A stretch of DNA of 32,122 nt from Methanobacteriota archaeon (GTDB taxonomy: Archaea; Thermoplasmatota; Thermoplasmata; RBG-16-68-12). A program made the translations under genes and the position numbers. Where the stretch lies: NCBI GenBank assembly GCA_005878485.1, contig VBMG01000044.1:1-32122 (forward strand), given 5' to 3'. The notes under the pieces are model-generated. The model made no database searches and had not been told where the DNA came from. It worked only from the letters and a program-made list of their open reading frames with translations. Positions 21,629 to 32,122 of the stretch are shown here, piece after piece (the first letter of the stretch is position 1; the number at the start of each line of letters is the position of its first letter).

Positions 21629-23149
21629 ATGATTTCCCTCGACGGACACTCGTTGGACTTGGACGATATCGCCGCCGTCGCCCGCCGGGGGGAGCGCGTC
21701 CGGCTCATTGCCGCGGCGGCCCGTCGCGTCGAGGCAAACCGGCGGGCGCTGGAGCGATCGATCTCGGAGGGCGCTGTCGCGTACGGAATCACGACGGGAT
21801 TCGGGGAGCTCGCGAACGTCGCGATCCCGGAAGCCGACGTCCGGAAGCTGCAGCTGAACCTCCTCCGGAGTCACGCGGTCGGCCAAGGCGAACCGCTTCG
21901 GACGGATGAGGTGCGTGCCTCGATCTTGCTGCGCGCGAACACCTTGGCCCTGGGCCGTTCCGGCGTCCGAAAGGTCCTCGTGGCGCGGCTGCTCGATCTC
22001 CTGAATCGTCGCGTGCACCCCGTGATCCCGTCCCGCGGGTCCCTCGGGGCCAGCGGAGACCTGGCGCCGCTCGCCCATCTCGGGCTCGTCCTCGTCGGAG
22101 AAGGCCGAGCCGAGTTTCGAGGTCGCACGTTCGCCGGAAGGGAGGCTTTGCGGCGGGCCGGGGTCGCGCCGCTGGTCCTCGAATCGAAGGAAGGCCTGGC
22201 GATTGTCAACGGGACCTCGGTCATGGCGGGCGTCGGGGCGCTCGCGGTGCACGACGGCTTGCGGTTGCTCAAGGACGCGCAGGTGGCCGCATCGATCGCG
22301 TTCGAGGCGCTCCGCGGCTCTCCGAAGCCGTACGACGACCGACTCGTCGTCCTGAAGCCGCAGCCCGGGGTCCGAGACGTGGCGGCGAACATGCGACGCC
22401 TCCTTCGGCGGAGCGAGATCATCCCGTCGCATCGGGGGCCGCACAAGGTCCAGGATCCGTACACGCTCCGGTGCATCCCACAGGTCCTCGGAGCGTGCCG
22501 CGCCGCGTTGGACACCGCGGCCGCCGTGGTCCGGATTGAGATGAACTCGGCCACGGACAACCCACTCATCCTCCCGGACGGCATGAGCGTGAGCGGCGGG
22601 AACTTTCATGGGCAGGCCGTCGCCATGGCCCTGGACCACGTGGCGCTCGCTATGGCCGTCCTCGCGGGATTCACGGAGCGCCGGATTGCGCGGCTCGTCG
22701 ACACGCGCCTGAGCGAGCTCCCGCCGTTCCTCACGGAGAAGTCTGGCCTGAACTCCGGGATGATGATCCTCCAGTACGTCGCCGCGGGCTACGCGAGCGA
22801 CAACAAGGTCCTCGCCCACCCCGCCTCCGCGGACTCGATCCCGACGTCGGCGAACCAGGAGGACTTCGTGCCGATGGGCATGTCGGCCGCGTCAAAGGCT
22901 CGCGAGGCAATCGAGAACGCAGCGCATGTCGTCGCGATGGAGTACCTCGCGGCCGCCCAGGGACTCGAGTTTCTCCAGCCGCTCCGGCCGGGCGTCGGTC
23001 CACGGGCCGCATACGTGCGGATTCGCGGATCGATTCCCCGCCTCGTCGACGATCGGTCGCTCGCGGAGGATGTCGACCGGATCCTTGGATGGATGAAGGA
23101 CGGGGCCCTCGTGGCCGCTGCGGAAGCCGCTTCGGGCGGACTCGCCTAG
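21629..23149 (+). CDS. Histidine ammonia-lyase family (MIO) enzyme
   Basis: VAYGITTGFGELANVAI, RGSLGASGDLAPLAHLGLVLVGEG (ASG MIO tripeptide), EMNSATDNPLI, GLNSGMMILQYVAAGYASDNKVLAHPASADSIPTSANQEDFVPMGM. TATA-like ACTATATCG ~35 nt upstream. Confidence 0.9.
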   Translation: MISLDGHSLDLDDIAAVARRGERVRLIAAAARRVEANRRALERSISEGAVAYGITTGFGELANVAIPEADVRKLQLNLLRSHAVGQGEPLRTDEVRASILLRANTLALGRSGVRKVLVARLLDLLNRRVHPVIPSRGSLGASGDLAPLAHLGLVLVGEGRAEFRGRTFAGREALRRAGVAPLVLESKEGLAIVNGTSVMAGVGALAVHDGLRLLKDAQVAASIAFEALRGSPKPYDDRLVVLKPQPGVRDVAANMRRLLRRSEIIPSHRGPHKVQDPYTLRCIPQVLGACRAALDTAAAVVRIEMNSATDNPLILPDGMSVSGGNFHGQAVAMALDHVALAMAVLAGFTERRIARLVDTRLSELPPFLTEKSGLNSGMMILQYVAAGYASDNKVLAHPASADSIPTSANQEDFVPMGMSAASKAREAIENAAHVVAMEYLAAAQGLEFLQPLRPGVGPRAAYVRIRGSIPRLVDDRSLAEDVDRILGWMKDGALVAAAEAASGGLA

Positions 23150-26100
23150 TCACTCGCGCCTTGGAGGGAGCGGAAGCAGGCGGGACAGCGACCGACCCGA
23201 GTCGCACAGAGTTCGTGGAAGTCGCGGCCGCAGCGGCAGCGTGTGGCCTTGAAGCCCTTCTTGATGAGGCCCTTGCAGATCGGGCAACGGGTCTCGAGGT
23301 CCGCGACGAGGCGCTTCGCTTTCTCCTGCACGAGCTCGGAGACGTCGACCTGGGCGATCATCTCCTGCGTGTACTCTTTGCCGTCGAAGGCGCGGTGGGA
23401 GATGACCTGAATCGCGAGGGGCACGGACCCGGAGGCGGTCATCTTGAGCCGCAGCCTGAGGGCTTCCGAGCCGTTGGCCGGCACGGCGGCGACGTCCGTC
23501 AGACCCTCCGTCTCCGCGTCGCCGACAATCCGGACCCGGACGTCCTTCGCGAGTCCCTTCCCGATGTTCTCGATCGTCAGAGTCGCATCGGCCCATTCGT
23601 TCACCCGCGTCGGGCCGACGTCGATGTACGCCTTCATGCTCGGCGCGAACGCCTCGTTCGCCTCCCAGGCGGTCCGGTAGGCTTCCTCCGCCGCCTTGAT
23701 TGCCTCGGGGAAATCGGACTTCCGGAGTTGCATCGCCTGCCCGAGCTTCCCCTCGGCGGCTTTCATGTCGATACCGAATTTGCGTCCGTTTCGAATCGTG
23801 GTTTCCACCTTGAACGTGAGATCGATGAATCGCTTCTCGACGACCTTCGCGGATTCGACGCGCTCCAACGCGCCCTCAACGACGGAGATCGCTTTTTCGA
23901 ACTCTCCCTGTTGGATCTGCTCATTCGCTTGTCGCAAGAGGTCCTCGGCATCCCGTGCATCGGAGCCGAGTTTCTTCGCATGGGCGACGTTCGCCGCGGC
24001 CTCCTGAATTGCGCGGTTCAACTTTGCGCCCAACGCCTTCTCGGCCGAGTCCCGCCCTTCGCGGATGCTCGCCCACGCGTCCGGGAAGTTCTCGGCTTCG
24101 ATCTGAGCCCGTGCCTCGGAGAAGCGGTTCAGCAAGGGAGTCGGGTCGACCTCCATCTTCCGACAGGTCGCGACGAGCGTCTCTCCCTTCGCGAGTTCCT
24201 CTTGGAGGCGGGACCGGAGGACTCCCAGACCCCAATCAAGACTCCCTGCGAAAGCCGATCGCGCCCGTTCGACCTCGCCAGCTTCCAGGGCGGTCTCCCC
24301 TTCCTGGAAGAACCTCTCAAACTTGACTGCGTCCGCGCGGACCTCGTGCGCCGTCTGGAGGAGTTTCTGCGCCCGGTCTCGGACCTCCTGCGTCTCTTCG
24401 AGCAGAATCCGGAGGTCCGCGATCGCGTCCGACGCCCGGACCGCCGTGTCGAGCGCCCGCACAAAGTCGGCTTCGTCAAACATCTTGCGGGCGTCCGAGA
24501 CGAGCCGGGTCACCTCCGTCGATTCGTTCCCGATGGATCGGAGCTTGCGCTCAACGGTCTCCACGGCCTGCCGGGCCATCGCCTGCTGGAGACCGACCCG
24601 GTCCGCCTCGGCCTCGCTCTGCTGCGCGGCCGCGATTGCCTGGCGGTACTTCTTGGCTCGGAAGAAATCGCGGGCCCGTTCAAAGAGCCGCTCGGCGGAG
24701 CGCGTGTCGGTGCCTTCGATCCGCGCCCGCATGAGGTTCTCCTCGAACCCTCGCATCATCGTGGAGATCTCCCGGTCCCGTTCCTTCGTCGCCTCGGCTT
24801 CCGCCTGGGCGGCGTCGTCGAGAGCCTCATCGAACTGACCCATCTTGTACGCCCGGTCCGCCTTCTCGAGCCATCCGGCCGTCGTGGGCATCGACAGGTT
24901 CATCGCATCCGCATCGGCGACGATTTCCTTCAGGCGCCGGAGGGCGGTCGTGGCCTCGTCGCCTTGGCGTTTCAGGAGATCGAGCTGCTCCCTCAGTTTC
25001 ATTGTGAGGTCAGCGGCCTGGTCGAGTTCCCCCGCGGCGAGGTGCTGACGTGCCCGGATAATCGCGTCGCTCGACTGGGCGAGGTTCACACCATCGACGG
25101 AGCCGAGGATCCGCTCCGCCGAGGCGAGGGACGACGTGAGCTTTTCTTGGATGAGGGCGGTGAACTCGTCTTCCGTCCGTTGTGCGAGGGTGAGCGCCTT
25201 CTCGTAGTCCTTTCCTTTCATCGCCTCTTTGGCGTCGCCGAAGATCTCGCGGAGGTGCGGGGCATCGATCCCAACTTTCGCCGCCAATTCCAGGCGTCCC
25301 CGGGAGGACAGGATCTTCTGAGCCGACGAATAGAGGACCGTGAGCTTGTCCGTCTCCGCCCGGGCTACGGAAGCGAGCTGGAGGGCCCGCTCGTAGTCAA
25401 GCCGCTCAAACGCCTTCTTGGCGTCGACGAGCATCTCGACGACCTTCGACACGTCGACGTTGCGCTTCTTCGCCTCCGCGACGAACGCCGCGGCGCTCGC
25501 AATCGCGTTGAAGGCCTGTCGGTGCAGCGCCGTGGCCTTGCTCGCCCGGTCGTTCCCCTCGTTCAGGAGGCGGAGCCCCTCGTGATAGTTCTGCACCCCG
25601 AACGCGAGCCGCGCCCGCCGGACGAGATCCGACATTGCATCCACGTCGATCTTGAGTCCCTGAGCGGTGGCGATTCGGCCCCGTACCAAGCCGCTGAGTT
25701 CCTCGACACATCCCGCCAGCGCCCCCGTCGCCTTCTCCCGGGCCGTGATGATTTCCCCCGCGCGGCCGCCCGCGAGGAACCCGTTCAGCTCGCGGTGGAC
25801 GATTTCGAGCGAAGCGACGTTCGCCCCGAGGTCAACTCCCATCCGAACGGCGACCGCAAGATCCCCGACGATTTCCTCCGCATTGGTCCGGATGCGTCCC
25901 TCGATGAATTTCTCGCCTTCGCCGATTGCCTTGAACGCGCCTTCGAAGTCCCGCGTGCCGATCGACGCGTCGGCCCGGTTCACGAGGGCTTTAAGGCTCG
26001 AGCCGTCGTCCCCGAGGTGAGGGATCGAACTCCGGAGGATTGCGAGCCGTGCGGTCGCGTGATCGGCAAGGAGCCTCTCGGTCTCCGTCTCGACGTCGGC

Positions 26101-27633
26101 CGCGAGGCGAAGGGCTTTCCGGTGCTCGTTGGCTTTCGTGGCGACGATCGCGTCTTGGAGGAGCTTCGACGGGCCCGACACGTCCACCCCGTTCTGCTCT
26201 GCGAGGGTGAGAATGAACTCCCCGCGTTCCAGCGACTGCATGACCCGCTCTCGCTCGGTCTTCCGCAACTCATCCATCGCGCCGTCCACGGCCTGCTCGA
26301 CATCCACGAGATTTCGATCCTGGTATGCCTGACGGGCCGTCTCCGCGAGCTTCCGGGCGCGCGTGGTCTGAACGCCAAACGCCTCGGCTTCGGCGAACGA
26401 ACGGTGGACCTCTTTGAGTCGGCCCTCGACTTTTCGATAGCTTTCGAGGATCTGGTCGACCCCGGTGTCCGCACGTTTCGCCGAGTCAATCGCTTCCCGG
26501 AAGGCGCCGCGTTTGACCGCCTCGCGGGCGTTGTTCAGGTCCTCCATCGGAGCCTTGAGATTGATGTCCATGTTCGCCGCGGCCATGAACTTCTCGCGGG
26601 ACGCGCCGATCACCGCAAGGACCCGGCGGAACTGGGCCTGTTGAATCGACTGGAATCCCTGTTTCGCGAGGGCGGCGCCATCGCGGTAGTTTCCTTTCTT
26701 GATCTCGGCCTCCGCTTGGTCGAAGAACTGCTGGGCGGCCGATGGATCCGCGCCGATGGCGCGGGCTTCCTGGGTGAATTTCGAGAAGTCGCCGGCTTTG
26801 CCATCCAATGATCGCTGAAGGGCCTTCTCCGATTCCGCGCGGCTTTGCCGGACCGAGTTTTTCGCTTTCTCGAATTCGAGGTTTCCGATGTCGCCGCGGG
26901 CCCGTTCGATCAGGGCCGAGGCCTTCGTTGCGTCGGCTCCGAGCTCCGCCGCGGTCCGCACGAGGTCCTCCGCGTCCCGGACCTCCCGGTTTACAGCGGA
27001 CGACAGGTCGTCCTTGATCGACTCGAACCCTTCATTTGTGAAATCGAGCGCGCTCTGGAAGTCGTCGTTCTCCATGGCGGTCCGAGCCCGGGAGAGCAGG
27101 TCTTCAATCGGCCCGACCTCCCGACTGAGATTCTTTGCAGAAAGGATGAGGGACTGTACCTTTGAGAACGAGGACGACAGGTGCTCTTGGAGCGCCTTTT
27201 CGCTCCGTTTCCACGCCTTCTTCGCGAGATCAATCGCGGTTCCGAGGTCCTCGGACGCGAGCGCGCCCTCCGCCTTCGCGAGCGCCGTCTCCGTTTCCGC
27301 GATATCCGCCCCAACGCTCTTGGCCAGTCGTCCGAGAGCCGCGCTCGAGTCGACGATCGCACGGGCTCGATCCCGATAGATTCGCTTCCCCCGCTCGAGT
27401 GCTTCGCCGGCCTTGTCCACCGCCACCTTGTAATCCTTCGCCGCGAGTGCGGCGTTCGCTTCCGCGAGGGGCTTCTCCGCGTCGACGACGGTCGCATCGA
27501 TCCGACGCGCTTGGTCGATGGTGTCTTGAGCCGCCTTGATGCCTTCCTCGGCTGCTTGGCGTGTCCGAGCGGTTTCCTTGACCCTCTCCTCCAGCTGCCT
27601 GCGCAGCTGACTGTCCCGCAAGTATCCGCTCAA
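23146..27633 (-). CDS. ~1495-aa helical-repeat protein with C-terminal Ig/CARDB-like segment and RING-like zinc domain
   Basis: Long open frame with about 20 units of ~62 aa (xGxD...L..A.......df..A...A), then PTRVNEWADATLTIENIGKGLAKDVRVRIVGD..., then CPICKGLIKKGFKATRCRCGRDFHELCATRVGRCPAC. TTG start at 27633. Confidence 0.88.
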   Translation of the reverse strand: MSGYLRDSQLRRQLEERVKETARTRQAAEEGIKAAQDTIDQARRIDATVVDAEKPLAEANAALAAKDYKVAVDKAGEALERGKRIYRDRARAIVDSSAALGRLAKSVGADIAETETALAKAEGALASEDLGTAIDLAKKAWKRSEKALQEHLSSSFSKVQSLILSAKNLSREVGPIEDLLSRARTAMENDDFQSALDFTNEGFESIKDDLSSAVNREVRDAEDLVRTAAELGADATKASALIERARGDIGNLEFEKAKNSVRQSRAESEKALQRSLDGKAGDFSKFTQEARAIGADPSAAQQFFDQAEAEIKKGNYRDGAALAKQGFQSIQQAQFRRVLAVIGASREKFMAAANMDINLKAPMEDLNNAREAVKRGAFREAIDSAKRADTGVDQILESYRKVEGRLKEVHRSFAEAEAFGVQTTRARKLAETARQAYQDRNLVDVEQAVDGAMDELRKTERERVMQSLERGEFILTLAEQNGVDVSGPSKLLQDAIVATKANEHRKALRLAADVETETERLLADHATARLAILRSSIPHLGDDGSSLKALVNRADASIGTRDFEGAFKAIGEGEKFIEGRIRTNAEEIVGDLAVAVRMGVDLGANVASLEIVHRELNGFLAGGRAGEIITAREKATGALAGCVEELSGLVRGRIATAQGLKIDVDAMSDLVRRARLAFGVQNYHEGLRLLNEGNDRASKATALHRQAFNAIASAAAFVAEAKKRNVDVSKVVEMLVDAKKAFERLDYERALQLASVARAETDKLTVLYSSAQKILSSRGRLELAAKVGIDAPHLREIFGDAKEAMKGKDYEKALTLAQRTEDEFTALIQEKLTSSLASAERILGSVDGVNLAQSSDAIIRARQHLAAGELDQAADLTMKLREQLDLLKRQGDEATTALRRLKEIVADADAMNLSMPTTAGWLEKADRAYKMGQFDEALDDAAQAEAEATKERDREISTMMRGFEENLMRARIEGTDTRSAERLFERARDFFRAKKYRQAIAAAQQSEAEADRVGLQQAMARQAVETVERKLRSIGNESTEVTRLVSDARKMFDEADFVRALDTAVRASDAIADLRILLEETQEVRDRAQKLLQTAHEVRADAVKFERFFQEGETALEAGEVERARSAFAGSLDWGLGVLRSRLQEELAKGETLVATCRKMEVDPTPLLNRFSEARAQIEAENFPDAWASIREGRDSAEKALGAKLNRAIQEAAANVAHAKKLGSDARDAEDLLRQANEQIQQGEFEKAISVVEGALERVESAKVVEKRFIDLTFKVETTIRNGRKFGIDMKAAEGKLGQAMQLRKSDFPEAIKAAEEAYRTAWEANEAFAPSMKAYIDVGPTRVNEWADATLTIENIGKGLAKDVRVRIVGDAETEGLTDVAAVPANGSEALRLRLKMTASGSVPLAIQVISHRAFDGKEYTQEMIAQVDVSELVQEKAKRLVADLETRCPICKGLIKKGFKATRCRCGRDFHELCATRVGRCPACFRSLQGASD
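23650..27555 (-). repeat. ~20-21 tandem protein repeats of 62 aa (186 bp) inside the giant protein
   Basis: Consecutive segments counted by hand, e.g. DSSAALGRLAKSVGAD..., SKVQSLILSAKNLSRE..., RDAEDLVRTAAELGAD..., GDFSKFTQEARAIGAD..., are each exactly 62 residues; a few units shift to 58-64. Confidence 0.8.
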
Positions 27634-27811
27634 GTTTCGTGGGCTCCGCTGCCTCGGAGAAGGCTTCGAGCTCTTCCTCCGAGGAATCGCAGCGAATCGA
27701 CGGGAACCGAGCTTATAAACGGCTTAGCCCGTGGTTATCAGAGATGATTCGCGCCTTCTGGAACGAAGGCCGCTGGCCCGGCGCGACGCAACTCCCGTGG
27801 AGCGGACGAGG

Positions 27812-28429
27812 TCACTCGGTCGCCGCGGGCGTCGGCTGGGGGGGAAGGCCGGGGATCACCGCTTCGGCGGGACTCGGCAGGGACGCTTCGCGAACCTCTT
27901 CGGACGACGTCGGGTCCGGGTGCTCCTTGTAAGGCACGCCTGCTTTCTGCGCCATGAGCTTCCGAATCCCTTCCCGGTCCGTCGACTTGAGCCCGAAGAA
28001 CTCTGCGAAGTAACGCGTGGTCGCGAGGGAGAGCGATCGTCCCGACGGCTTGCGCGAGATGAGCCCGAGCTCCTCGAGGGCTTTCGTGTGCTCGTAGACC
28101 TTCGCCCCGATCATGTCGAAGAGGTCGCTCTGGAGGATCGGCTGGTGGTATGCGATGAGCGCGGCCGTCTTCAACACGTCCCGGTCGATTTCCGGCGGCG
28201 CGAACCAACGGGCACGTTCCGCGTACTCGGACCGAATCTGCATCGTCCACTTCGTGCCGATCTGAGTGACTTCGATCGCACTGTCCCGCTGCGTGTATTC
28301 TCGGGCGATGACGCGGAGGTGCTCCCGAATCCTCTCGGGATCGACTCGGGTGGTCCGCGCGAGTTCGTCCACGGTCAGAGGCCGGCCTGCGCTGTACAAG
28401 GCGGCCTCCACGATGGCGCGCTCGTTCAT
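27812..28429 (-). CDS. scpB: Segregation and condensation protein B
   Basis: MNERAIVEAALYSAGRPLTVDELARTTRVDPERIREHLRVIAREY..., VLKTAALIAYHQPILQSDLFDMIGAKVYEHTKALEELGLISRKPSGRSLSLATTRYFAEFFGL. ATG overlaps the scpA stop (ATGA). Confidence 0.93.
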   Translation of the reverse strand: MNERAIVEAALYSAGRPLTVDELARTTRVDPERIREHLRVIAREYTQRDSAIEVTQIGTKWTMQIRSEYAERARWFAPPEIDRDVLKTAALIAYHQPILQSDLFDMIGAKVYEHTKALEELGLISRKPSGRSLSLATTRYFAEFFGLKSTDREGIRKLMAQKAGVPYKEHPDPTSSEEVREASLPSPAEAVIPGLPPQPTPAATE

Positions 28430-29346
28430 TCGTTCGCCTCCCCAGAGGCTTCGGGTTTCGGTCCGAGCGCCGGGATCGCCAAGAGTTCCTCCAACGGGAG
28501 GTCCGTCTTCATCGACAGCCGCTTCACGTAAATCTCCCCGTACGGGAAGTCCTTCTGCCACAGCTTCACTTTCTCCAAGTGGGCGAGGAAGAGTAAGGAC
28601 ATGAACACGGTCACCTCGTCCCAGACCCCGCCCGCGGTGAGATGACGCAGCGGGATCGGCTCCCCGTTGAACTGCGCGAGACGGTGCCACGTCAAGGCGA
28701 TGTCCTCCGTGAGGTCTTCTCCGTGGACCTTTTGATGGAAATTCGGCGCGAACTTCCGGATCGCCTGTTCCCGGAGGGCGTTCAGTTGGAGCTGGATTTC
28801 CGCCTCCCGACGGGCTTCGTCGAATGCGTCCATCAGTTCCATGAGGGTCACGGCGCGTCGGCCTTCCCGGCGAATCGCCTCGGTCAGGGGCGTCGCGGTG
28901 CCCGCGAGGACCACCTGGTTGTAGTCCAGGTCCGCCGGATCCCGGAACATGTCGAGGTCCCAGCCATCGACCTCGGGCTCCGGCTGCGGCGGCATCGCGT
29001 CGAGGAGGACCTTGTCGCTTTGCATCTTCAGGATCGACCAGGCGAGGAAGACGAGCTTCCCCGCCGTAACGAAGTTCACCGCGCCGTCCTTCTTCACTTT
29101 GTCCATGAAGAGCTTCGTGAACTGGACGAGGTTGATTTCCCACGGGTCCAGGTGCCGCTCGAGGACGAGCTCGAACGCCGCGACGATCGACTTCTCAAAG
29201 GGGTCCCGGACCGCGACGTGCATCCCCTGGTCGATCTCGTTCAGCATCCCGAGATACCGGTTGATCCGTTGGCCGCCCTCCGTCTCGCTGATCAGGGCTT
29301 TGTGGAACAGCAGATGGTTCAGCACGGTCTGGTAATTCTCGCTCAT
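28426..29346 (-). CDS. scpA: Segregation and condensation protein A
   Basis: FEKSIVAAFELVLERHLDPWEINLVQFTKLFMDKV...NFVTAGKLVFLAWSILKMQSDKVL; C-terminal winged-helix VTVFMSLLFLAHLEKVKLWQKDFPYGEIYVKRL. ATGA overlap with the smc stop. Confidence 0.93.
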   Translation of the reverse strand: MSENYQTVLNHLLFHKALISETEGGQRINRYLGMLNEIDQGMHVAVRDPFEKSIVAAFELVLERHLDPWEINLVQFTKLFMDKVKKDGAVNFVTAGKLVFLAWSILKMQSDKVLLDAMPPQPEPEVDGWDLDMFRDPADLDYNQVVLAGTATPLTEAIRREGRRAVTLMELMDAFDEARREAEIQLQLNALREQAIRKFAPNFHQKVHGEDLTEDIALTWHRLAQFNGEPIPLRHLTAGGVWDEVTVFMSLLFLAHLEKVKLWQKDFPYGEIYVKRLSMKTDLPLEELLAIPALGPKPEASGEANE

Positions 29347-32122
29347 GCGGGGATGGCCTCCGTCGGTTTCTCGTCCTCGATGTCGGCTAGGTTGACGCGC
29401 ATGATGACCTCCGAGACCGACTCGGGCGTCATCGTCACGCCGATCAGGTGGTCCGCCTCCTTCAGGGAGACCTTCCGCAGCGAGATCTGAACGAACTGCG
29501 CCGTCGCGCTGTTCCGCCGGATCATCCGAGCGACCTTCTCCGCGTTGACGGCGTCGAGGTTCTGGTCGATCTCATCGAGGAGGTAGAACGGCGAGGGGTC
29601 GTATTCCTGGATCGCGAAGATGAGGGCCATCGAGGCGAGGGATTTCTCCCCGCCGGACAGGGCCTCGAGCCGCAATGCCTTTTTGTGCGCCGGCTTCACC
29701 TTCAGGATGAGCCCGGCCTCGAACGGTTTCTCCGAGTCTTCCAAAAGGAGGTCGGCTTCGCCTCCTTCGCTCAGCTCGGCGTAGACCCGCTTGAAGTTCT
29801 CGCTGATCGCGGTGAAGACCTTCGCGAGGCCCTCTTTCTTCTTGTCCGTGAGCTGGTTTACGAGGTTGATGAGCTCCTCGCGCTGCCCCTCGAGGCGTTT
29901 GAATTCATCCTTTAGCTCAATCGCGCGCGCCTGCTGCGCCTCATAATCCTCGAGGGCCCGCAGGTTGATGGGACCGAGGGCGTTGATCGCCGTCTCGCAC
30001 TCTGTGATCGTGGCTTTGAGCTCCTCGAGAGTCGGGAGTCGCCCCTCCGTCAACTCGACGGCCATTTCCTTCATGACACGTTCGGCCTCGGAGAGCTGCT
30101 CCTCCTGCACCTTCAGCTCCGTCTCCATTTTCAGGAGGAAGTCTTCCTTCGTCTCGAGCTTGTGCGTGACTTTGTCGAGGTCCGCCTCGCGGTCGGTCTT
30201 CTCCTTGTACGCCGCGTCGCGGGCGTCTTGGAGATCCTTCATTTGCTTGCCCATCTGGGCTTCCGTCTTCTCGAGGCCCCGGATCTCCGTCTCGAGGCGA
30301 CCCAGCGATTCCTGGTTCGACTCGATCCGCTTCTCGTGATCCTTCCGCTGGTCCTCCAAGGTCCCGATGCGCGTGTCGACCTCCGTGCCGCGCTCCTCGA
30401 GGAACGTGGTCTGGGTCGCCATCGCCTCGAGCTTCGACCGAAGGCCGCTCAGTTCCTCGGCGAGGGTCGCACGGCGGCTCATCAGTTCCTTCATTCGCGA
30501 CGAGATCTGTTGGGGCGTCGCCTCGATGACGGCCTTCTTCCGCTCGTCCCGTTTCGCCTTCAAGGCGTCGAGCGCTTTCGAGAACTTCGCAAGGTCTTCC
30601 TCGATGCGCTTCGCGGTCTTCTCCGCGAGATTGAATCGATCCTTCCGCTCGGTGAGGTCCTTTTCCGCGGCGGCGAGCCTCGCGGTGAATTCTCGTCGTT
30701 TCGCTTCCAACGTACTGGCCTTCACCTCGACGGCTCCGCTCTTGCCGCCGGAGTCTTTGATCGTGCCCTCGAGGTCCAGGATCTCCTTTCGGATTCCGTC
30801 GAGAAGGTTGGCGACGTTCTCGGCGTGCGTCTGGGCCTCGCGCAGCTTTTCCGCGATCTTCTCCATCTCGCTCGCGGCGCTCGGCCCGAACTTGACCGTG
30901 GAGCGCTCCATGTCGCCGCCGATCATCGCCCCCGAGGCCTCGATTAACTCGCCCTCGACGGTCACGAGGCGGACGCCGCCCATCCATTTCCGGGCCTCGT
31001 CGAGCGACTGGACGACGAGCGTGTCGCCGAAGACGTAGAAGAACGCGTCCCGGTACTTCTCATCGAAGTGACAGAGGTCGATCGCGAATCCGAGGCACTC
31101 CTTCGCCACCAGGATCGCCTTGCCCCTCGGCTTGCCGACCAGCATCTTGCTGAGGGGCAGGAACGTCGCGCGGCCGATCTTGCGCCTCTTCAAGAAGTCG
31201 ATGCACTGGGCCGCGACGGTGTCGTCGTCGACGATGATTGCCTGCATCCGGGCGCCCGCGGCGGTGACGATGGCGGTCTCGTACTGCGGATCGACGTGGG
31301 CGAGCTGCGCCACGGTGCCATGGATCCCTTTGATGGACCCGGTCTCGCGGCATTCCAGGATCGCGCTCACGGCGGCGGTGTATCCCCGCTTCATGTTTTC
31401 TGCGACATCCGCTTCGGCCTTGATCTGAGCATATTGCCGCGTGAGGCTGAGGATTGCTGTCTGCAATTCGGCCTGCTCCTTCGCGAGCTTCGCCTCTTCT
31501 GCGCGTTTCTCGTGAAATTCCTGTTGGAGTTTCTGTAGGCTCTTCCCCGATTCCTTCGTGGACGACCGCAGCTCCTTCAGCTGCCAGTCGGTGTCGTCGA
31601 ACTCGACCTGGTACTGTTTCCGGGACTCCTCGATCTGGGAAATCTCCGACTCGAGTCGGCCCATCGCTTCCTTGGTGCGGTCGCCCTCGAGGACGATCCC
31701 TTTGAGCTTCTCCTCGACTTGGTCGATCTCGTTGTTGAGTGCGATGATTTGCTTTTGGATTCCGAGCACCTTCGCGTCGCTCTTCGACGCGAGTTCGTCG
31801 ACCTCATGGAGATCTCCATCGGCGCCCTTGATCTGGCCATCGAGCTCGCCGACACGCCCGTCGACGTTTGTCCGCTCTCGCGCGAGCGCGTCCGTCTCCC
31901 TCTGGACCTTGGCGCGCTCCTTGTTTGCATCCCCCGTCTCGAGGCGAATCTGTTTCAGCGTCTCCTTCGAGGTCTCGATTCCGTCCGCCGCGCGGGCGCG
32001 CTGGATTCGAAGCCCATCGAGTTTCTCCTTGAGTTGTTTCGCTTCCTCGCCGCCCCGGTCCGCCATCTCCTGTTCGAGTTCGCTCAGGCGGGCGACCGCG
32101 GCGTCGAGCAGCTTCCGAAGCT
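29343..32122 (-). CDS. smc: Chromosome segregation protein SMC (N-terminal part beyond window edge)
   Basis: Hinge ECRETGSIKGIHGTVAQLAHVDPQYETAIVTAAGARMQAIIVDDDTVAAQCIDFLKRRKIGRATFLPL; C-motif LSGGEKSLASMALIFAIQEYDPSPFYLLDEIDQNLDAVNAEKVARMI. Frame stays open upstream of the track start (RKLLDAAVARLSELEQEMAD). Confidence 0.96.
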   Translation of the reverse strand, partial: LRKLLDAAVARLSELEQEMADRGGEEAKQLKEKLDGLRIQRARAADGIETSKETLKQIRLETGDANKERAKVQRETDALARERTNVDGRVGELDGQIKGADGDLHEVDELASKSDAKVLGIQKQIIALNNEIDQVEEKLKGIVLEGDRTKEAMGRLESEISQIEESRKQYQVEFDDTDWQLKELRSSTKESGKSLQKLQQEFHEKRAEEAKLAKEQAELQTAILSLTRQYAQIKAEADVAENMKRGYTAAVSAILECRETGSIKGIHGTVAQLAHVDPQYETAIVTAAGARMQAIIVDDDTVAAQCIDFLKRRKIGRATFLPLSKMLVGKPRGKAILVAKECLGFAIDLCHFDEKYRDAFFYVFGDTLVVQSLDEARKWMGGVRLVTVEGELIEASGAMIGGDMERSTVKFGPSAASEMEKIAEKLREAQTHAENVANLLDGIRKEILDLEGTIKDSGGKSGAVEVKASTLEAKRREFTARLAAAEKDLTERKDRFNLAEKTAKRIEEDLAKFSKALDALKAKRDERKKAVIEATPQQISSRMKELMSRRATLAEELSGLRSKLEAMATQTTFLEERGTEVDTRIGTLEDQRKDHEKRIESNQESLGRLETEIRGLEKTEAQMGKQMKDLQDARDAAYKEKTDREADLDKVTHKLETKEDFLLKMETELKVQEEQLSEAERVMKEMAVELTEGRLPTLEELKATITECETAINALGPINLRALEDYEAQQARAIELKDEFKRLEGQREELINLVNQLTDKKKEGLAKVFTAISENFKRVYAELSEGGEADLLLEDSEKPFEAGLILKVKPAHKKALRLEALSGGEKSLASMALIFAIQEYDPSPFYLLDEIDQNLDAVNAEKVARMIRRNSATAQFVQISLRKVSLKEADHLIGVTMTPESVSEVIMRVNLADIEDEKPTEAIPA

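Follow-up and report, generated by a model that had tools for sequence, protein, structure and literature searches.

A Giant Gene Next to smc-scpA-scpB Encodes a Protein with a 62-Residue Period

What a giant protein made of divergent repeats does in an archaeal cell, and whether the smc, scpA and scpB genes beside it bear on the answer, is the question raised by this locus. The gene occupies positions 23146..27633 (minus strand, 1495 aa, TTG start) of the window, by which we mean the whole 32,122-nucleotide stretch of DNA analysed. Its relatives share the start site, with GTG as the start codon in most of them. In MAG contigs L067 and L074 the gene is broken across reading frames, probably through assembly frameshifts.

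The initial annotation described about 20 consecutive units of nearly 62 residues each. The period was borne out by self-comparison: in an autocorrelation of the repeat region (BLOSUM62 scores, evaluated against shuffles), the highest peak lies at lag 62 (z = 10.9) and the next at lag 124 (z = 5.3). The unit start motifs that had been listed fall at residues 95, 157, 219, 281, 343, 405, 467 and 529 in a first run and at 899, 961, 1023, 1085 and 1147 in a second, with every step being exactly 62. The number of units had to be corrected. A unit HMM retrieves 20 in the window protein, and the short helices of two AlphaFold models mark 21, on average 62.05 aa apart (range 58-64), a count that takes in two inferred sites, one at ~978 (interpolated between the models) and one at ~546 (where the helix is predicted to be unbroken). 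In a leave-one-out test, 18 of the 21 units scored better than all 200 of their own shuffles, the failures being units 7, 10 and 17. The array thus defined, a rod of 21 units of about 62 aa, spans residues 26-1328 (positions 23650..27558, minus strand).

On reading of the sequence, no membrane segment is evident at the N-terminus, nor is a signal peptide, the latter in agreement with the initial annotation. Its statement that the architecture belongs to no named family also stands for the repeat; no Pfam repeat model covers the rod. A match to the NCBIfam SoxAX-binding protein (E 2.9e-10) reached 40.6 bits against a cut-off of 95 and was treated as generic helical similarity.

The Rod Is Predicted to Consist of Short Three-Helix Bundles

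The two AlphaFold models cover residues 1-960 and 1010-1495 and were built from alignments of 25 and 26 sequences, respectively. Mean pLDDT was 89.5 for the latter and 86.3 for the former. The pTM values of the two models were low (0.55 and 0.34), so that the bends between units and the overall shape of the rod are not fixed by them. Each predicted unit contains one 15-residue helix, and between these lie helices of mostly 39-41 residues that continue from one unit into the next; the loops comprise about 5 and 3 residues. The usual helix break is missing from the model at unit 9. Judged from these helix boundaries, the rod is predicted to be a head-to-tail array of three-helix bundles with the topology of spectrin and a unit length of 62 aa. 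A Foldseek search of the rod against solved structures in the PDB gave zero matches at E ≤ 0.001.

Twenty-one short bundles joined by unbroken helices would give the rod a set length, roughly 60 nm if it is straight, as estimated from 21 units × ~19 helical residues × 0.15 nm. The 21-unit span (about 1230-1263 residues) is kept by most orthologs and families, down to ~22% identity. Together with the predicted continuous-helix bundles, this supports the earlier suggestion of a rod under structural selection for length.

Conserved Segments Flank the Rod

The best-conserved stretches of the protein are its N-terminal segment and its zinc domain. The former (aa 1-25, positions 27559..27633, minus strand; SGYLRDxQLRKQLEEK...) precedes the rod, and the N-terminus of the protein, MSGYLRDSQLRRQLEERVKE, reads as hydrophilic and devoid of a membrane anchor. 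Behind the rod lies an Ig/CARDB-like beta-sandwich (aa 1333-1443, positions 23305..23637, minus strand), followed by a C4HC3 RING-like zinc domain of the Prok-RING_1 type (aa 1447-1490, positions 23164..23295, minus strand).

Both C-terminal domains noticed initially proved to be real. CARDB is matched by 3 of 22 orthologs (best E 2.3e-6, Pfam), the window copy scoring 16.2 bits against a curated cut-off of 22.7. On structure comparison the predicted sandwich matches TRAP subunits, adaptin ears and the CARDB domain of PF1109 (3idu, 2kl6; TM-score 0.58, normalised by target length); it differs from these Ig domains in the cytoplasmic setting of the rod protein and in a window copy below the CARDB cut-off. 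The zinc domain can be placed with Pfam Prok-RING_1 (PF14446), which likewise is a C-terminal zinc domain and is matched by 9 of the 22 orthologs at E ≤ 0.001 (best E 8.7e-15); the window copy itself is sub-threshold (11.9 bits, cut-off 29.1; E 0.23). The eight ligands C1450, C1453, C1466, C1468, H1473, C1476, C1483 and C1486 are invariant across the 22 aligned orthologs. Members of families f6, f24, f29 and f31 stop without the RING motif, which argues that the zinc domain is dispensable. Of the initial picture of an intracellular ruler or scaffold with a zinc-mediated end, the rod, the selection on its length and the presence of the zinc domain are supported. In many orthologs (e.g., L046, L047, L048 and L049) the zinc domain is followed by a terminal KK(K/R)xALK(I/F)-like tail; it is absent from the window's genus.

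Distribution in Thermoplasmata and Co-Occurrence with FtsZ

Of 61 related genomes, 59 contain a match to the giant protein at E ≤ 0.001. Named matches come from Thermoplasmata, Methanomassiliicoccales-labelled and Euryarchaeota MAGs. Across the class Thermoplasmata, 152 of 251 genomes match the profile at E ≤ 1e-10, with 136 of these matches stronger than 1e-50, and most families contain colinear orthologs between ~1440 and ~1620 aa long. The proteins of one lineage (L098, L114) exceed the usual span by about two units; the weakness of the unit profile prevents a reliable count in the most divergent families. Beyond this class, the phylum also has proteins of other lengths that carry related repeats, with open frames of up to about 3200 aa; those in G279:C3 and G288:C3 (3155 and 3198 aa) have the same repeats and match the C-terminal end of the profile.

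Three further proteins of the window's genome (G000) carry related parts. A 2385-aa paralog (L064:1939-9096, contig C39) begins with a zinc-ribbon-like segment, carries similar repeats and a CARDB-like domain, and matches DUF5915 at its C-terminus; a 462-aa protein (L065:7200-8588, contig C105) combines double zinc ribbons with a few similar repeats; and an exosortase/archaeosortase-like membrane protein (L066:10847-12046, contig C84) has a RING-like zinc domain of the same type at its end.

FtsZ_C was found in 195 of the 251 genomes, including all 136 with a strong match to the rod protein. FtsZ is present and the rod absent in 48 genomes, and 51 have neither; 16 weak-match genomes are left out of this table. 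The Fisher p value for this association is 3e-24, with relatedness between genomes ignored. The listed FtsZ-less genomes belong to f11 and to part of f22 (mcrA is present in the tested members of f11 and absent from those of f22), so the independent evidence from FtsZ amounts to perhaps two events. The SMC hinge was detected in 244 of the 251 genomes, rod-less ones included. SMC is almost universal and the rod is not, which rules the rod out as a core SMC subunit; because SMC is so widespread, co-occurrence with it was set aside as uninformative.

Gene Neighbourhood and Upstream Region

On the minus strand of the window, smc, scpA and scpB precede the giant gene in that order. The smc gene (29343..32122) has its 5′ end cut off at the contig end; scpA (29346 down to 28426, i.e., 28426..29346; kleisin, 306 aa) overlaps both smc and scpB by 4 bases; scpB (27812..28429; kite subunit, 205 aa) comes next. 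The window scpA is probably correctly named, on the basis of synteny and of similarity to its counterpart beside smc in L107, which matches SMC_ScpA (Pfam). On the other side lies a convergent histidine ammonia-lyase gene (21629..23149, plus strand), which is outside the function proposed here. The stop codons of this gene and of the giant gene share the four bases 23146-23149.

The initial annotation overlooked both this gene context, including ftsZ in other genomes, and the class-wide distribution. In families f1-f6 of the window's order, smc-scpA-scpB lies immediately upstream of the giant gene on the same strand. In f26, smc-scpA is upstream with one opposite-strand gene intervening, and in genus g28 of f15, scpB-scpA-smc is convergent to the giant gene in 4/4 genomes (two by synteny, two by hit positions only). 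In all six f19 genomes, ftsZ is located 4-47 bp upstream of the giant gene on the same strand. In an RpoB tree, from which the G000 row was excluded because of an implausibly long branch (taken as a wrong-frame ORF), f2/f4, f15 and f26+f19 fall into different clades, with f26 and f19 being sisters. By rough inference, adjacency to one given operon in 3 of ~20 families would rarely arise by chance, with the qualification that smc and ftsZ were picked as meaningful neighbours only after they had been seen. Most other families have no smc or ftsZ linkage, the neighbours there being genes for a tRNA synthetase, KaiC, FTCD, CGI-121 and eIF5A. The histidine ammonia-lyase gene is convergent to the giant gene in several families and is as persistent as the other neighbours; as it has no plausible link to the rod, adjacency here can evidently persist without function.

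Upstream of the giant gene lies a TATA-like box, GTTTATAAGC (27711..27720, minus strand), conserved in family f1 and located about 80-90 bp before the start in most of ten f1 relatives and the window. A conserved dyad element, TGATAAYCACGGGCTAA (27724..27740, minus strand), stands upstream of the box; a GTGATAAYCACGGGCTAA-like element is present just upstream of the box in most g1 members and is degenerate in g2. No other near-perfect copy of the dyad element was identified in four genomes, and further matches in these genomes were near control level, so a regulatory element common to the giant gene and ftsZ or other genes was rejected. Because a conserved predicted promoter of its own separates it from scpB, the giant gene need not share the smc-scpAB transcript, which weakens the case for strict co-transcription.

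Comparison with Known Rods and Repeats

The closest parallel in working principle is EzrA, an FtsZ regulator of Firmicutes. EzrA is a rod of five ~100-aa spectrin-like bundles that binds FtsZ and is linked to the membrane through an N-terminal TM helix (PMC4243239). The rod described here, as predicted, is likewise a linear head-to-tail array of triple-helical bundles joined end to end, and in f19 its gene directly follows ftsZ. It differs from EzrA in having 21 repeats of 62 aa rather than five of ~100 aa, and in lacking an evident TM segment while carrying Ig-like and zinc domains at its C-terminus. With repeat length and anchor different and no sequence or fold match between the two, the likeness is one of principle and not of family.

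Spectrin and alpha-actinin share with the predicted rod the unbroken helices linking three-helix bundles and the divergent units of nearly fixed length, the rod units being about 60% as long as theirs. No spectrin match was returned by Pfam, by Foldseek (PDB, E ≤ 0.001) or among the best 60 solved chains compared with the unit profile. Going by the models, the rod appears to be spectrin-like, each repeat being only slightly longer than half a usual one. The turn ‘A..AL..GDY..AL..A’ resembles a TPR or MIT hairpin, and positions 18-53 of the unit profile match consensus TPR chains. Pfam TPR models, however, remain below threshold on the window protein and its orthologs, and TPRs form a superhelix of 34-aa two-helix units, whereas the rod has a 62-aa period and 39-41-residue helices that cross two units. 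Membership in the TPR family was therefore rejected, the similarity being at the level of the hairpin.

Possible Role of the Rod

The computational analysis establishes the repeat with its fixed number of units, a predicted fold, conservation across the class and the linkage of the gene. The rod itself is well supported, and gene context is what suggests the process in which it might act. With the N-terminal segment at one end and the Ig/CARDB-like domain, usually followed by the zinc domain, at the other as putative binding modules, a rod of this kind could keep two partners at a constant separation in the manner of a ruler. By analogy with EzrA and from gene context, we tentatively propose that it may be a cytoplasmic scaffold in FtsZ-dependent division and/or SMC-dependent chromosome segregation, a reading that we consider quite possible. 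Its boldest form, in which a dedicated molecular ruler made of a new, short kind of spectrin-like repeat links the FtsZ ring with chromosomes organised by Smc-ScpAB, its 21 units being dictated by the gap to be bridged, is decidedly unlikely to hold in full.

The same neighbours would also suit an Smc-ScpAB accessory that binds SMC, kleisin or kite and governs how the rings are loaded or spaced, in the way of the HEAT-repeat proteins of eukaryotic SMC complexes. The giant gene adjoins smc-scpA(-scpB) in three separate clades and in three different arrangements, and the estimated length of the rod is near that of SMC arms, given as ~47-49 nm (PMC5344682, PMC5526789). Nearly all rod-less genomes nonetheless have SMC, Foldseek at E ≤ 0.001 matched neither HEAT nor SMC proteins, and the giant gene has a predicted promoter of its own, which leaves this explanation unlikely. 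If the neighbours were instead meaningless, the protein could be a general cytoplasmic or cortical scaffold serving mechanical support, enzyme docking or trafficking. Unrelated neighbours in most families would fit this, as would the presence of related repeats in further zinc-ribbon proteins from this genome and the resemblance of the Ig-like domain to adaptin-ear, TRAP and CARDB folds, which are typical generic binding domains. Such a scaffold would not account for the linkage to smc or ftsZ, which recurs in separate arrangements, nor for the strict co-presence with FtsZ, and we regard it as somewhat improbable.

The C4HC3 domain with its invariant ligands, the Prok-RING_1 matches and a weak similarity to RNF165-type RING chains would accord with a ubiquitin-ligase-like protein, whose RING-like domain recruits a conjugating enzyme while the rod binds substrates. 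Several families keep the rest of the protein without the zinc domain, however, and an archaeosortase-like protein of this genome ends in a domain of the same type, pointing to a general binding module; a ligase-like role is thus very improbable.

We therefore retain the scaffold in division and/or segregation as our working proposal. To our knowledge, the way in which archaea match FtsZ-based division to the segregation of their chromosomes is little understood, and a class-wide rod of fixed length encoded beside smc-scpAB or ftsZ provides a concrete candidate for a part in it. It may thus represent a scaffold for cell division or chromosome segregation in archaea that has so far gone unrecognised.
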